From: Parapedobacter koreensis
GTDB lineage: Bacteria > Bacteroidota > Bacteroidia > Sphingobacteriales > Sphingobacteriaceae
Assembly: GCF_900109365.1 (NCBI RefSeq)
Contig: NZ_FNZR01000008.1
Coordinates: forward strand, 186,001 to 250,000
Length of the DNA stretch: 64,000 nucleotides
Reading direction: 5' to 3'
Of this stretch, positions 4,822 through 30,617 are shown one piece after another. A program made the position numbers and the translations under genes. The notes under the pieces were generated by a model. It was not told the origin of the DNA. It made no database searches and was given only the letters and a program-made list of their open reading frames with translations. The stretch's first letter is position 1; the number at the start of each line of letters is the position of its first letter.

Positions 4822-6003
4822 CTACACCTTTTGCCTATCCTTTATGTTCAACAGTAAATAAGCGCCGAGGCCGAAGATGACGGCACTGACGGTAGCTAAT
4901 GCAAAACTGCCCACGACATATTCAGTCAGATGTTGTTGAATAAACGTCCCATATGTGCCAATTTCTGCCCACTGAAAAAGTAAACTTGAACCCGCGGGTT
5001 GCCCTGAAAGTAACGCGCCGATTTGCAGGCTGATATAAATGATAAAGGGGATGAGCGGTGGAAGACTGATATTCGAAAAAGCAAAGGCAATCAGTTTATT
5101 CAGCCGGAGCACCAGCGCGAGGAACAATACGGTAATCGTCTGGAATCCCCAAATCGGGGAGAGTCCCACGAGTACGCCCAGAGCCACAGACAAGGCTTTT
5201 TTCAAAATCGAATCATCGCTATGCAGCAGGTCTTCGAGGAAAAAACGCCTGAATCCCTTTTCCGTGAATGAACGGAAATACGCACGCGGGCGGATGTAAA
5301 GCAGCGTGACCAGCACAAGCCAGGTGTTGAGGATACTGATGCGGGTAAAGTCGCGAAACGGCCGGAAATGCGATACCCGCTCTGCGGGGTTGTACAATAC
5401 GTTTACGGGGATATTGCGCACGGGAATACACCGCCAGGCCGCTTTGACGATGACCTCCACCTCAAATTCGAATTTGGTGGAATAGAAGCGGATCCCCTGT
5501 ATCCGGTTAAGCGGGTAGAGCCGGAAACCCGATTGCGTATCGGCGAGCGCGATGCCCGTTTCAAACCGGAACCAAAAATTGGAAAACCGGTTGCCGAAGC
5601 TGCTCTTGCCGGGGATACCTTCCCGGTTCATGTTGCGGTCGCCGATAAGCAATGCTGATCCATGACGTTCGATTTCATCCACAAACCGCGGGATGTCCTC
5701 CGGGAAATGCTGGCCATCCGAGTCAATGGTAATGGCGTAGCTGAATCCTTGCCTGCCGGCCGCACGGAAACCGATGCGGAGTGCCCATCCTTTACCCTTA
5801 TTGCGTGGCAGGTGAATGATGGTCAGGTCCGAATAATGAGCCAGCAGGGATGCGGTGTCGTCCGTAGAACCATCATTGACCACGATGATATGCGACGTAT
5901 ATTGGCGCACACCGTCCAGCACCCGTCTGAGCGTTTTGGCATTGTTGTAGGTGGGGATGATTACACAAGCGTTGATAGTAGCCAATACCTCGTTGGAAGT
6001 CAT
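4822..6003 (-). CDS. Family 2 glycosyltransferase fused to a DUF2062 membrane domain
   Basis: The first 230 or so residues of this 393-residue protein form a GT-A glycosyltransferase. It has the early PTYNNAKTL segment, a nucleotide-contacting VVNDGSTDDT (about 41-50) and a DxD-type metal motif in TIDSDGQHF (about 93-100). The C-terminal part from about 260 is hydrophobic with several membrane helices, typical of DUF2062. GT2-DUF2062 proteins recur in aryl-polyene and flexirubin clusters; a dolichol-phosphate-mannose-synthase-like transfer to a lipid carrier is plausible. The product's sugar, if any, is unknown. A 13-base gap separates it from the upstream gene in the operon. Confidence 0.88.
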   Translation of the reverse strand: MTSNEVLATINACVIIPTYNNAKTLRRVLDGVRQYTSHIIVVNDGSTDDTASLLAHYSDLTIIHLPRNKGKGWALRIGFRAAGRQGFSYAITIDSDGQHFPEDIPRFVDEIERHGSALLIGDRNMNREGIPGKSSFGNRFSNFWFRFETGIALADTQSGFRLYPLNRIQGIRFYSTKFEFEVEVIVKAAWRCIPVRNIPVNVLYNPAERVSHFRPFRDFTRISILNTWLVLVTLLYIRPRAYFRSFTEKGFRRFFLEDLLHSDDSILKKALSVALGVLVGLSPIWGFQTITVLFLALVLRLNKLIAFAFSNISLPPLIPFIIYISLQIGALLSGQPAGSSLLFQWAEIGTYGTFIQQHLTEYVVGSFALATVSAVIFGLGAYLLLNIKDRQKV

Positions 6004-26298: not shown

Positions 26299-27428
26299 TA
26301 ATTCGCTTTTTCAAAAGGCTCCGCGTTGTCAAACCATTCGTTGCCCAGCACCTTCCCGCTGGTGTCGATAAAGCCCCATTTGCCGTTATGTTTGACACGG
26401 GCGAGGCCGTTGATGAAGCCTTTTTCGTCACCACCGGTCAGGAAACCGATCAGCGCCACCGATATGCCGTATTCAGCAGGGATCACCAGTTGGCCAGTGG
26501 CGTTGATGAAACCCCATTCTTTGCCCACCTTTACAGGCGCAAGGCCGTCCGGGCTGAAAATCTCCGCATCGGGGTACTGGGGTTGGATTGCCAATTCGCC
26601 CTGCGCATTGATATAGCCCCATTTTTTGTCCACATATACCGGAGCCAAGCCATTCCGGAAAGCCCGTGCCTTGTCATATTGTGGCTCGATTACCCATTCG
26701 CCTTGTTGGTTGATGAATCCCAGCTTGTCATTTTTCCGTGCGTAGGTCAGCGGCTCATCGCCAAGGAATGTCCATATTTTGTCTGCCCCATCCACCGGCG
26801 TGAAGGGCCCACCCTTGCTGATAAGGCCAAATGTCGTGCCTTCGCGGGCGATGACGATGCCATTGTCCGAAATATCAATTTCATCATAACGGGGCTCCAC
26901 TACGGCTGAGCCGCCGACATCGATGACACCCCATTTGCCGTTCTGCCGCACCTTGGCCAGCCCATTCGTGAAGGATTGGATTTCGGCATAGGAGGGTTTC
27001 AGGATGACATGACCTTTATTGTCTATCAAACCTACCAAATCGCCCGATCGGAGAAACGCCACACCTTCATTGAAGTCATACAATTTGTCGGACGCTGGCA
27101 TTTCAACCGCAGTGCCTGTTTTGTCAATGTATTGCCACAGCTTGTCCTTTTCCACGATGGCCAGGCCGCTGTTGAATGCCTTCGCGGCATCAAATTGCGG
27201 CTCAATGACCGTTTCACCACGGGCATTGATATAGCCCCACTTTCCATTGACGAACACAGCGGCGAGGCCATCGGAAAACGAACCAGCCTTGTCGAATTGT
27301 GGCGCAATGGTTAGGTTGCCCTGGGTGTCGATGTAGCCGATTTTTTTGTTCGTTTTGACCAGTGCCAGCTCTTGGGCGTACGAGAGGCAAACAGCGAATG
27401 CCAGTAAACAGGTAAATAGCGGTTTCAT
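26298..27428 (-). CDS. Secreted WG-repeat protein
   Basis: A 376-residue protein with a signal peptide (residues 1-18) and about ten WG-type repeats such as KWGYINARGETVIEPQFD, KWGYINAQGELAIQPQY and KWGFIDTSGKVL. WG repeats form beta-propeller-like modules. The gene is nested in the pigment operon, overlapping the ammonia-lyase by 4 bases (ATGA) and sharing a TAATG with fabG. I know of no catalytic role; surface binding or pigment display is speculative. Confidence 0.88.
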   Translation of the reverse strand: MKPLFTCLLAFAVCLSYAQELALVKTNKKIGYIDTQGNLTIAPQFDKAGSFSDGLAAVFVNGKWGYINARGETVIEPQFDAAKAFNSGLAIVEKDKLWQYIDKTGTAVEMPASDKLYDFNEGVAFLRSGDLVGLIDNKGHVILKPSYAEIQSFTNGLAKVRQNGKWGVIDVGGSAVVEPRYDEIDISDNGIVIAREGTTFGLISKGGPFTPVDGADKIWTFLGDEPLTYARKNDKLGFINQQGEWVIEPQYDKARAFRNGLAPVYVDKKWGYINAQGELAIQPQYPDAEIFSPDGLAPVKVGKEWGFINATGQLVIPAEYGISVALIGFLTGGDEKGFINGLARVKHNGKWGFIDTSGKVLGNEWFDNAEPFEKAN

Positions 27429-28981
27429 GACGTAAACGTGTTTAAATTTAAATGAATAGCATCATGTGCTTTGATATAATCTTTTACCCTTGCCAGGTAA
27501 GGCGACAAGGTGATATCCTCTTTAAAGGTAGGGACAATTGACCGTATATTCGTATAAACTTCTCCACTTTTTGAGGAAAGTTTATCCCGGCAATCCAGCG
27601 CGTCCACGGCTTGCACCAGCGTGACCAATTGGATGGCGAGCACTTCATACGCATTGTCGATGACTTTCTTGGTGAGCCACGCCGCATTGGTGCCCATGCT
27701 TACGATATCCTGGTTATCCTTATTGTTTGGGATGCTGTGTGTGTATATGGGCGTTGCCAGCGTTTGGTTTTCTGCGGTCGTAGATGTCGCGGTAAACTGT
27801 GCGCCTTGCATGCCGAAGTTGAGCCCAAGCTTGCCCAAGTTGACAAACGAAGGCAGGATTTCGTTCAGCGAGACGTTGAGCAAGTAGTTGAGCTGCCGTT
27901 CCATCAGCATGGTCAGTTTGGCTGTGGCAATGCGCAGTTTATCCATCTCAAAGGCGATGTAGTCGCCGTGGAAATTGCCACCATGGAAGACATTTTGTGA
28001 AGCAACGTCGATGATGGGGTTGTCGTTTGCCGAATTGACCTCTTCGACAAGTGTGGTCGTGCAATGGTGCAGGGCATCCCATATTGGCCCGAGGATTTGC
28101 GGTACGCAGCGGATGGAATAATATTCCTGCAATTTGTCCTTGAAGATGGTTTCTTCTACCCGGCGGTCATACAGGTGTTCGTGCCGTTTGCGGATCAGGC
28201 TGCTATCGGCGATAATTTCCCGCATCAATGCGGCTACCTGCTGTTGGCCATGGTGTTTCTTCGTACCGTTGAGCGTTTCGGAGAGGTGATCATCATAAGC
28301 CCTTACCAGTTCGTTTATCCAGGCCGAGCAAGTGATTGACCAATACAGCAACCGTTGCGCATAGATGGTGTTTACGATACCGATTCCGGTCATCACCGAC
28401 GTGCCGTTGATGAGGGCAAGCCCTTCGCGGATGTGGATTTGCAAGGGTTCCAACCCTTCGCTGGCGAGCGCTTGCGCCGCAGCGGTTTCTTTGCCTTGAT
28501 ACCAGACGTTCCCTTCGCCGATCATGTTCAATGCCAGGTGGGCCAGCTGCACCAGGTCGCCACTGGCACCTACGCCACCATGCTGGTGGATGACGGGCAC
28601 GATGTCACGGTTTAACATTTCCGTCATCAGTGCCACGGCATTGGGGTGCACACCCGAATAGCCCAAAGACAAGGTATGCAAGCGGGCTAAAAGTGCAGAT
28701 TTGGCGTAGATGGGATCCAACACCTCGCCCATACCGGTCGCATGGCTACGGATGAGGTTGTATTGCAGTTGGATTTGGTCTGCTTCAGCTATCCGGTACT
28801 GTGCCATGGGGCCAAATCCCGTGTTTACGCCATAGATAATTTTATCCTTGGCGAAATTTTTCAGGAAATGATGGCTTTGGTTTATCCTATCCGATGTGCT
28901 TTGGGTCAACTTGATTTTTTGGTTTTCGAAGAGCACCGCGTAAAAATCGGCCAACGCTATCGGGTTCGTTAGTTCTATCAT
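27425..28981 (-). CDS. Aromatic amino acid ammonia-lyase (probable tyrosine ammonia-lyase)
   Basis: A 518-residue MIO enzyme of the HAL/PAL/TAL family. The Ala-Ser-Gly that cyclises to MIO is at 139-141 (GGVGASGDL) and the catalytic Tyr at 50 (IYGVNTGFG). The specificity pair after NLIR is Ser79-His80. That pair is typical of histidine ammonia-lyases, but as I recall it also occurs in the characterised Flavobacterium johnsoniae tyrosine ammonia-lyase, which this sequence resembles along its length. It would deaminate tyrosine to 4-coumarate, the starter of the aryl polyene. As first gene of the minus arm it has a good upstream promoter candidate. Confidence 0.9.
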   Translation of the reverse strand: MIELTNPIALADFYAVLFENQKIKLTQSTSDRINQSHHFLKNFAKDKIIYGVNTGFGPMAQYRIAEADQIQLQYNLIRSHATGMGEVLDPIYAKSALLARLHTLSLGYSGVHPNAVALMTEMLNRDIVPVIHQHGGVGASGDLVQLAHLALNMIGEGNVWYQGKETAAAQALASEGLEPLQIHIREGLALINGTSVMTGIGIVNTIYAQRLLYWSITCSAWINELVRAYDDHLSETLNGTKKHHGQQQVAALMREIIADSSLIRKRHEHLYDRRVEETIFKDKLQEYYSIRCVPQILGPIWDALHHCTTTLVEEVNSANDNPIIDVASQNVFHGGNFHGDYIAFEMDKLRIATAKLTMLMERQLNYLLNVSLNEILPSFVNLGKLGLNFGMQGAQFTATSTTAENQTLATPIYTHSIPNNKDNQDIVSMGTNAAWLTKKVIDNAYEVLAIQLVTLVQAVDALDCRDKLSSKSGEVYTNIRSIVPTFKEDITLSPYLARVKDYIKAHDAIHLNLNTFTS

Positions 28982-29014: not shown

Positions 29015-29045
29015 CAAACTTAGCTAAATTGGCTTTGATATCCAA
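29015..29045 (-). promoter_or_regulatory. Candidate promoter of the main pigment operon
   Basis: On the minus strand TTG (29045-29043) and TAAGTTTG (29022-29015) are 20 bases apart, as in the Bacteroidota TTTG/TAnnTTTG promoters. Transcription would begin near 29008 and give a leader of about 27 bases before the ammonia-lyase. The same TAAGTTTG occurs at the opposite arm (29365). Confidence 0.55.
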
Positions 29046-29188
29046 CTGTCTATGGGCATATGCAATGCGACGTCAGGCACCAAGCCGGCAACGCCCTGGC
29101 TATTTACTTTTTCCTGGATAAAACTTATATAAAGATTTATAAATTACGGAATGACATTTACTAATTATGATATATTGAACCATATTTT

Positions 29189-29249
29189 ATCGTAAATTCA
29201 TCGTATATAATACGATAAAAATACGATGAATTTACGATTAAAATACGAT
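29189..29249. promoter_or_regulatory. Phased TACGAT array with an 18-bp inverted repeat (operator-like)
   Basis: Direct reading shows ATCGTA(T/A) at 29189 and 29200, then ATACGAT at 29210 and 29221, TTACGAT at 29232 and ATACGAT at 29243. Within each orientation the spacing is 11 bases, about one helical turn. The outer sites form a perfect 18-base inverted repeat (29189-29206 with 29221-29238) around a 14-base loop, and TCGTAT/ATACGA (29201-29215) forms a smaller one. It lies centrally between the two divergent promoters. Cooperative binding of a regulator is the natural reading; a hairpin role is the alternative. Confidence 0.65.
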
Positions 29250-29340
29250 GGTATATAAAAGTTTACTCTATTTAAATTAATCATTTATAAAAATTTAGTT
29301 GGGAAACAGTTGCTGAGCACTACCGTGACAGGGAATAAAC

Positions 29341-29372
29341 CTTGCTTTTATAGGCAACTTTGTCTAAGTTTG
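29341..29372 (+). promoter_or_regulatory. Candidate promoter of the plus-strand pigment arm
   Basis: CTTG (29341-29344), 20 bases, then TAAGTTTG (29365-29372) lie 21 bases before the start at 29394. The -7 box is identical to that of the opposite arm. Its position also argues that the upstream ATG at 29310 is not the real start. Confidence 0.5.
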
Positions 29373-29393: not shown

Positions 29394-30617
29394 ATGATTT
29401 CAGAGCACGTTGATGTTTTAGTAATTGGAGCGGGCCCTTCCGGGGCTGTAGCGGCTTCCATCTTGCACCAGAAAGGCGTTAAGGTAAAAGTCATTGAACG
29501 GGAGCATTTCCCCCGTTTTGTCATTGGCGAAAGCCTGATTCCCCGTTGTATGGATCACTTCGATGAGGCTGGATTCATCGAGGCTGTCGAAGCCAAGCGG
29601 TTTGAAAAGAAATTCGGCGCCCGTTTTTTACGGGGCGAAGATGTATGCTGGTTTGACTTCAGCCAGAAGTTTTCCCCCGGCTGGGACTGGACGTGGCAAT
29701 TGCCACGCGCGGAGTTTGATCAGACGCTTACGGACACCTTGCAGCACAGGGGTGTTGATATCGCTTTTGGTACCACAGTGGAAAATGTGGTGTTTGCTGG
29801 TACCGATTCTTTGACTACGGTACGCGATGAGCAGGGAAACCGGAAAGAAATCCATGCACGCTACCTTATCGATGCCAGCGGCTACGGCCGCGTACTGCCA
29901 CGGTTGCTGGATCTGGACAAGCCTTCTACGTTTGCGCCCATGGCCGCCACATTTGTGCATGTCCATGATCTTCGTCGCCCCATAGGGATAGAAGGCACAC
30001 GCATCACATTTGACGTATTGGAACAACGGATATGGTTTTGGGTCATTCCGTTTTCGGATGGGCGGACGTCCTTGGGGCTGGTATGTCCCAAGGAGCATTT
30101 GGAAGCCATCAATCAGGGCGATAATTCCAAGACTTTCCAGCGTATCATCCAGCAATCCGACTATTACCGCCAGCGGTTTGATGGTTTGGATTTTCTTTTC
30201 GAGCCTAAGCAAATCGTATCCTATGCTAAGGCGGTGAAAAAGTTATACGGCAATGGCTTTGCGCTCACGGGCAACAGTGCGGAGTTTTTGGATCCCGTAT
30301 TCTCATCGGGCGTTTGTTTTGCGACCGAATCAGGCGCATTGGCGGCCAACTTGGCCGCTAAGCAACTGGCTGGTGGGCAAGTGGATTGGGAGCATGAATA
30401 TGAAGAACACATGCTATGGGGAGTCAATGTGTTCCGTTCCTACATACGGGATTGGTATTCGGGCGATTTGCAGAAGTTTTTCTTCCATAAGGAGGTGAAT
30501 GAAGACGTGCGCCGCAAAGTGTGTTCGGTATTGGCGGGCTATGTATGGGACAAGGAAAACCCATTTGTGAAGAAGCACGACCGCGCGGTGAAGGCCGTGA
30601 CCCATTTGCTACCGTAA
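29394..30617 (+). CDS. Flavin-dependent halogenase-like oxidoreductase
   Basis: A 407-residue flavoprotein from ATG 29394. The FAD motif is GAGPSG (12-17). Two halogenase signatures are present: a lysine in KKFGARF (Lys72/Lys73), as in phenol-type halogenases with KxGxxF, and a WxWxIP motif (WFWVIP at 214-219), which blocks monooxygenase chemistry in halogenases. FADH2-dependent halogenases chlorinate aromatic substrates; some flexirubins are chlorinated on the aryl ring, so this enzyme could act on the 4-hydroxyphenyl end. It may alternatively be a non-halogenating relative. It begins the plus-strand arm. Confidence 0.82.
   Translation: MISEHVDVLVIGAGPSGAVAASILHQKGVKVKVIEREHFPRFVIGESLIPRCMDHFDEAGFIEAVEAKRFEKKFGARFLRGEDVCWFDFSQKFSPGWDWTWQLPRAEFDQTLTDTLQHRGVDIAFGTTVENVVFAGTDSLTTVRDEQGNRKEIHARYLIDASGYGRVLPRLLDLDKPSTFAPMAATFVHVHDLRRPIGIEGTRITFDVLEQRIWFWVIPFSDGRTSLGLVCPKEHLEAINQGDNSKTFQRIIQQSDYYRQRFDGLDFLFEPKQIVSYAKAVKKLYGNGFALTGNSAEFLDPVFSSGVCFATESGALAANLAAKQLAGGQVDWEHEYEEHMLWGVNVFRSYIRDWYSGDLQKFFFHKEVNEDVRRKVCSVLAGYVWDKENPFVKKHDRAVKAVTHLLP

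Follow-up and report, generated by a model that had tools for sequence, protein, structure and literature searches.

The flexirubin-type pigment locus of Parapedobacter koreensis raises the question of what a short and very regular stretch of DNA does between two divergent genes. The original prediction, made on the window analysed here (the whole stretch of 64,000 nucleotides), described six ATCGTA/TACGAT sites, mostly 11 bases apart, and proposed that one regulator could control both pigment arms through them. The six sites at the pigment promoter are real. The first two had been placed correctly, whereas each of the last four had been given one base too low, and every interval between sites is exactly 11 bp, not just most of them. 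This exact lattice bears out the proposed phasing of one site per helical turn. The perfect 18-bp inverted repeat (29189-29206 with 29221-29238) was found as described, and is enclosed in a longer one of 22 bp (95%). The longest chain of hexamers on an 11-bp lattice in the window has six members; of 200 dinucleotide-shuffled versions of the window, 199 had no chain longer than one and the remaining version reached two, and none of 2000 shuffles of the intergenic region went above one. The array is also the strongest period-11 stretch of the window, scoring 31 of 45 against 24 for the runner-up. The observation is confirmed, and is stronger than first stated. The features of the locus are collected in Table 1.

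Table 1. Features of the pigment locus, in window coordinates
Feature	Position	Strand	Basis
Flexirubin-type tyrosine ammonia-lyase FlxA, left arm	27425..28981	-	NF053541, 837.3 bits, cut-off 700
Match to Bacteroidota -7 box (TAAGTTTG), ammonia-lyase arm	29015..29022	-	consensus from PMC9723704
Array with AT-rich right flank	29184..29312	.	alignable at 76% over 131 columns to the C18 DUF6266 locus (its array plus the flank facing the OxyR-like gene)
22-bp inverted repeat, arms 29185-29206 / 29221-29242	29185..29242	.	from the flip of the array
11-bp phased array, six TACGAT/ATCGTA sites	29189..29249	.	motif positions, inverted repeat, shuffles
Left side, two ATCGTA sites at 29189 and 29200	29189..29205	-	hexamer positions
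Right side, four TACGAT sites at 29211, 29222, 29233 and 29244	29211..29249	+	hexamer positions
Match to Bacteroidota -7 box (TAAGTTTG), halogenase arm	29365..29372	+	consensus from PMC9723704
FAD-dependent halogenase-like gene, right arm	29394..30617	+	PF04820 above cut-off; orthologues in the genus

The two arms flanking the array are part of a flexirubin cluster, FlxA being above its curated cut-off; the halogenase-like gene of the right arm reached no equivalog cut-off among the NCBIfam matches listed. The distance from the array is 208 bp to the start of the ammonia-lyase gene (28981, minus strand) and 145 bp to that of the halogenase gene (29394, plus strand). Its proposed position between the promoters of the divergent genes was upheld: each gene has a match to the Bacteroidota -7 box, described as TAnnTTTG (PMC9723704), and both matches are kept together with the array in P. 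luteus. Around the array region, the two facing promoters (window 29015-29033 and 29354-29372) make up an inverted repeat of 79%.

The same motif occurs elsewhere in the chromosome. The pattern TACGAT-N5-TACGAT has 11 matches in the whole 5.5-Mb genome of P. koreensis, against none for the reversed control: four in the pigment array, six in arrays on contigs C10 and C18, and one within a coding ORF. Isolated single matches, such as the one inside a coding ORF at C18:195024, were left out of the array counts, giving three ATCGTA-type arrays in total. On contig C10 the array is flanked on one side by the start of carA and on the other by the 3' end of a TonB-dependent receptor gene. The array of contig C18 has as its neighbours an OxyR-like gene and a gene pair, each member of which matches PF19781 (DUF6266), so that an array of the same motif stands upstream of a DUF6266 gene in P. 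koreensis itself. The OxyR-like neighbour suggests a comparison with OxyR and other LysR-type operators, whose half-sites are likewise about one turn apart. The OxyR operator has four ATAG-type half-sites in alternating orientation, whereas the half-sites of the array point two to the left and then four to the right around a single flip, with the core ATCG/CGAT. On this orientation, OxyR was rejected as the binder.

A sequence model built from 17 arrays was run on the Parapedobacter and Olivibacter genomes, where it matched eight of nine and four of five genomes, respectively, with 20 and 14 arrays (34 in total, overlapping matches merged) and one to five copies per array-bearing genome. A scan of a named genome collection with the strict pattern returned 26 stretches, of which 11 are in these two genera and the others are scattered; two viral contigs (L090 and L091) also contain the strict pattern. 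When the copies are aligned, most of those in Parapedobacter show a single flip with four sites on one side and fewer on the other. Arrays of this type occupy up to eight lattice positions. The motif is ATCGTA-like in G000 (P. koreensis), G002 (P. composti), G004 (P. luteus), G005 (P. indicus), G008 (P. soli) and G067 (Olivibacter jilunii), and ATCGTC-like in the arrays of G003, G006 and G007, with ATCGTA and ACCGTA motifs mixed in G022, G057 and G120. About 19 of the 34 arrays lie between divergent ORFs and two (L047 and L057) between convergent ones, the others being co-directional or unclear; ORFs were called by simple scripts, and the L156 stretch contains masked bases. Among the neighbouring genes, alaS and ahcY each scored above the NCBIfam cut-off in one locus. 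The search of orthologous loci gave a divided answer: the array is present at the pigment locus of P. luteus and is thus not absent from all of them, but it is also found at unrelated gene ends. Because arrays of this type are found at numerous unrelated places in the genomes, the idea of a pigment-specific operator or switch was rejected as the full story.

The inverted repeat could act in RNA instead, as a hairpin in the leader transcript, and the single strand of the pigment array indeed folds well (-26.2 kcal/mol, z -5.9). This explanation is very improbable in our judgement. Over the 34 arrays, complementarity between partner spacers is 0.558 (90 pairs, s.e. 0.029), compared with 0.523 for off-register spacers (180 pairs, s.e. 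0.019); complementarity is thus no higher across the flip than out of register, and there is no sign of selection for a hairpin. Moreover, in several arrays (L053 and L054) the short side has just a single clear site, and the array matched no Rfam family at gathering score, the four weak matches (three miRNA families and one snoRNA family) all falling below it.

One neighbour of the arrays recurs. In genome after genome a two-gene DUF6266 unit adjoins one array, and the neighbours on the other side of that array vary, including OxyR-like genes and genes that we take, by inspection, to be DedA-like and HD-domain-like. The second gene of the pair has 14 close copies (at least 52% identity) in 11 genomes, and in each of the 14 close pairs the first gene is preceded by an array with an ATCGTA- or ATCGTC-like motif. 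Most of these arrays are clear; those of L115 and L118 are degenerate, and by the period-11 test alone those of L115 and L121 are not significant. Among 201 genomes of the family, the array model matches 12, namely 11 with an intact close DUF6266 pair and G120, a co-occurrence that rests on two genera whose genomes are not phylogenetically independent. In G120 the second DUF6266 gene survives only as a relic, a piece containing a stop (L153, about 5705-5857, minus strand), and two arrays are still there. G001 and G043, from the same two genera, have neither an array nor a close DUF6266 gene. Across genomes the motif type follows the matching DUF6266 type, with mixed results for the TTACC type described below (G002 and G006) and for the variants of P. 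indicus, where two orphan arrays are ATCGTA-like, yet both DUF6266 pairs carry ATCGTC-like arrays.

DUF6266 genes are numerous, with 19 matches in one Parapedobacter genome, and the 420 bp upstream of them were read in P. koreensis and its relatives. Other motifs are found there in 11-bp arrays: TTTACC/CTTACC, CGGACA, CGGAGA, TATAGGG, TTATTCGG and CCGAA. In 50 such upstream regions, a z above 3 was obtained in 24 at period 11, six at period 10, one each at periods 9 and 14, and none at periods 8, 12, 13 and 15. At period 11, 15 of 150 control regions also had z above 3, all 15 overlapping a known array by position, and the other periods gave zero or one. The remaining 26 of the 50 regions fall below the period-11 test line; by eye, those of L112, L124 and L127 have four weak repeats. 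Long intergenic 11-bp tandem arrays also occur in G098, a genome of another family (L063 and L191-L195), with units like GTAATACGATT, some of them changing orientation. Since G098 has no DUF6266 match, 11-bp arrays are not confined to the DUF6266 system.

The TTACC type likewise stands at places away from its DUF6266 gene. P. koreensis has TTACC arrays in four places, one at the L108 DUF6266 gene and three elsewhere (control 0), and six of the nine genomes of the genus have them, with 116 matches against two for the reversed control (one each in G002 and G008). In G000, G003, G004, G005 and G006 an orphan TTACC array separates ileS from a gene that we take, by inspection, to be iscA, and G000 and G003 also have one between prmC and ribD. 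Others occur once each, near rpsA (G000), glmS (G004), dnaK (G002) and a nagB-like gene (G004), and one in G006 (L177) lies between two convergent ORFs. The neighbours ileS, rpsA, prmC, ribD, glmS and dnaK are each above NCBIfam cut-offs in one locus; the iscA-like gene, and the YbeY-like neighbour of some ATCGTA-type arrays, had no NCBIfam match at 1e-30. G002 and G006 have TTACC arrays and no TTACC-type gene among the DUF6266 copies read. For TATAGGG we make no claim of orphan arrays, since its control equals its matches (seven and seven).

The pigment promoter of the genus links two of these array types. Halogenase orthologues were found in seven of the nine Parapedobacter genomes. In P. 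koreensis and P. luteus the pigment promoter carries the ATCGTA array in the same position, between identical -7 box matches, and G006 has a TTCGG-type array in its place. The intergenic regions between ammonia-lyase and halogenase in G003 and G007 (106 and 80 bp) are without an array; that of G003 (L167) is a near-perfect palindrome of two facing promoters. At the halogenase loci of G005 and G008 the ammonia-lyase start was not found by the script; no strong array was seen there, period 11 scoring at best 21 and 14 of 45, respectively. Overall, at most three of the seven halogenase loci carry any array (two of the ATCGTA type and one of the TTCGG type), and although the flanking arms belong to a flexirubin cluster with FlxA, the array is not a feature of such clusters. 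The TTCGG-type DUF6266 gene is present in G003, G005, G006 and G007 and was not detected in G000, G001, G002, G004 and G008 (E 1e-30). In G006 the array region of the pigment promoter aligns with the region upstream of its TTCGG-type DUF6266 gene over 150 columns (76%). In the three pigment loci that carry an array, therefore, its type corresponds to a DUF6266 type that the same genome possesses. In G003, G005 and G007 the TTCGG-type gene is present and the pigment promoter has no TTCGG array.

That one orthologous promoter carries different array types or none would also be expected if the arrays were functionless, non-autonomous mobile repeats of intergenic regions. The flanks are partly common to array copies within one genome, and copying or movement of the element is therefore likely to be part of the history of the arrays. 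As a full explanation, mobile repeats without function seem improbable, because the 11-bp lattice is exact while the spacers drift, and because the same places are kept across species: the pigment locus in P. koreensis and P. luteus, the OxyR locus in three species, a gene presumed to be ybeY in three Olivibacter, and the iscA-ileS interval in five species. This recurrence of positions indicates that some arrays have been kept.

The arrays could alternatively be sites of chromosome organisation or segregation, similar to parS or parC, rather than parts of promoters. Plasmid centromeres have iterons of 10-11 bp, and in the ParR-parC type these tandem repeats load a chain of protein. The low number of arrays per genome and the location of some between convergent ORFs (L047, L057 and L177) fit this explanation, which we nevertheless regard as having only a slight chance of being correct. 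In contrast to plasmid centromeres, the arrays are dispersed on the chromosome near gene starts, many of them 100-210 bp from start codons (distances that may be off by some codons), and no partition genes were seen in the neighbouring ORFs. In G057, a single contig of 6.1 Mb, the five arrays are at 0.66, 0.95, 1.47, 1.61 and 3.05 Mb and are not clustered.

Which protein would bind the arrays is suggested by their neighbourhood, and the candidates are DUF6266 itself and BldC-like HTH_17 proteins. What appears to be a recurring cassette of varying composition was observed at DUF6266 genes of the other types (L108, L113, L114, L123, L131 and L137), consisting of HTH_17 and LytTR-like genes, the array, and then another DUF6266 gene, a DUF5675 gene or a gene for a small membrane protein; L108 has a LytTR response regulator and a DUF5675 gene besides its HTH_17 gene. 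In the literature searched, DUF5675 is named in two phage papers. An origin of DUF6266 in phages or plasmids was discarded, as six DUF6266 proteins had no PHROG match and a search with one protein each found none in plasmids or phages.

It is possible, but on the whole unlikely, that a separate protein, a small winged-helix HTH_17 member similar to BldC or RdfS, binds the arrays and polymerises head to tail on direct repeats, and that DUF6266 genes are merely frequent targets. HTH_17 genes lie beside arrays of other types at L108, L114, L131, L137 and L185 (all five matched, L185 just below the cut-off), and at L185 the gene is 92 bp from a TTACC array, with no DUF6266 gene seen in that 5-kb stretch. 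BldC of Streptomyces, a MerR-like relative of HTH_17 proteins, is described as coating 9-bp direct repeats of variable number near promoters by cooperative head-to-tail binding (PMC5859096). RdfS is described as an oligomeric winged-helix factor that takes part in excising an integrative element and has no consensus motif, and factors of its type form head-to-tail chains along DNA, as proposed here for the arrays (PMC11963761). Both differ from what the arrays would require. The repeats of BldC are AT-rich units of 9 bp with a relaxed consensus (PMC5859096), whereas those of the arrays are 11 bp long, have a strict core, change orientation at a flip and differ in motif from one DUF6266 type to another; compared with RdfS, the motif is strict and no integrase was linked in the loci read. 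In addition, the many motifs would require equally many specific HTH_17 paralogues, and although HTH_17 genes accompany other array types, none resembling them or BldC was seen beside the ATCGTA-array DUF6266 pair when the neighbouring ORFs were read by eye. For this reason we provisionally favour DUF6266 as the binder of the ATCGTA array.

DUF6266 (PF19781) is mentioned nowhere in the literature searched. Its predicted structure (mean pLDDT 90.8) has short strands and a long helix in the N-terminal part and an FN3-like C-terminal part, the latter giving Z up to 7.6 and 2.5 A rmsd over 95 residues in the fold search; the whole model has weak matches to viral tail-fibre folds. The first 60 residues have a mean net charge of +8.8 (50 proteins). 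Modelled alone, the N-terminal part (pLDDT 85.8, pTM 0.57) had a best Foldseek E of 2.8 and one VIA row at Z 2.2, and the best sequence match in the PDB had an E of 0.14. Sequence and fold searches thus recognised no DNA-binding domain, and the FN3-like half alone matches known folds; poor matches of a predicted N-terminal part do not prove that its fold is new. We nevertheless advance, tentatively and as rather less than probable, that DUF6266 is an unrecognised family of sequence-specific DNA-binding proteins whose N-terminal fold is unlike known ones. Each paralogue would read, and be autoregulated by, its own 11-bp array, and would recruit the promoters of core genes and pigment genes at which copies of this array have come to lie, paralogues exchanging array types at the same promoter.

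Beyond the pigment locus, the wider outcome is a network of arrays, each with its specific motif, that is linked to the DUF6266 family. A cooperative operator is a plausible reading of the pigment array, and we infer from the foregoing that it is bound by protein. Put more fully, DUF6266 would mark a regulatory system, and the array would be one of its operators, with multiple sites in helical phase and a cognate factor that acts in trans; we see nearly, but not quite, an even chance that this is correct. Half-sites one helical turn apart would load a cooperative chain of a sequence-specific protein, on a cis-acting operator flanked by the divergent promoters of both pigment arms, where any effect on transcription would be exerted. 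The cognate factor would belong to the system marked by the DUF6266 pair at the OxyR-like locus. This pair probably regulates itself by way of its own array, and the system would act in trans on the orphan arrays at the pigment promoter and carA. The binder may be the DUF6266 product, with its basic N-terminal part and FN3-like domain, and the other DUF6266 paralogues would run parallel systems with different 11-bp motifs.

This proposal gives a first functional handle on DUF6266, and the paralogue-specific motifs make the match between protein and DNA directly testable. It predicts parallel regulatory circuits whose specificity can be read from the DNA. Because arrays stand near ileS, alaS, rpsA, glmS, dnaK and ahcY, these circuits could touch growth control.
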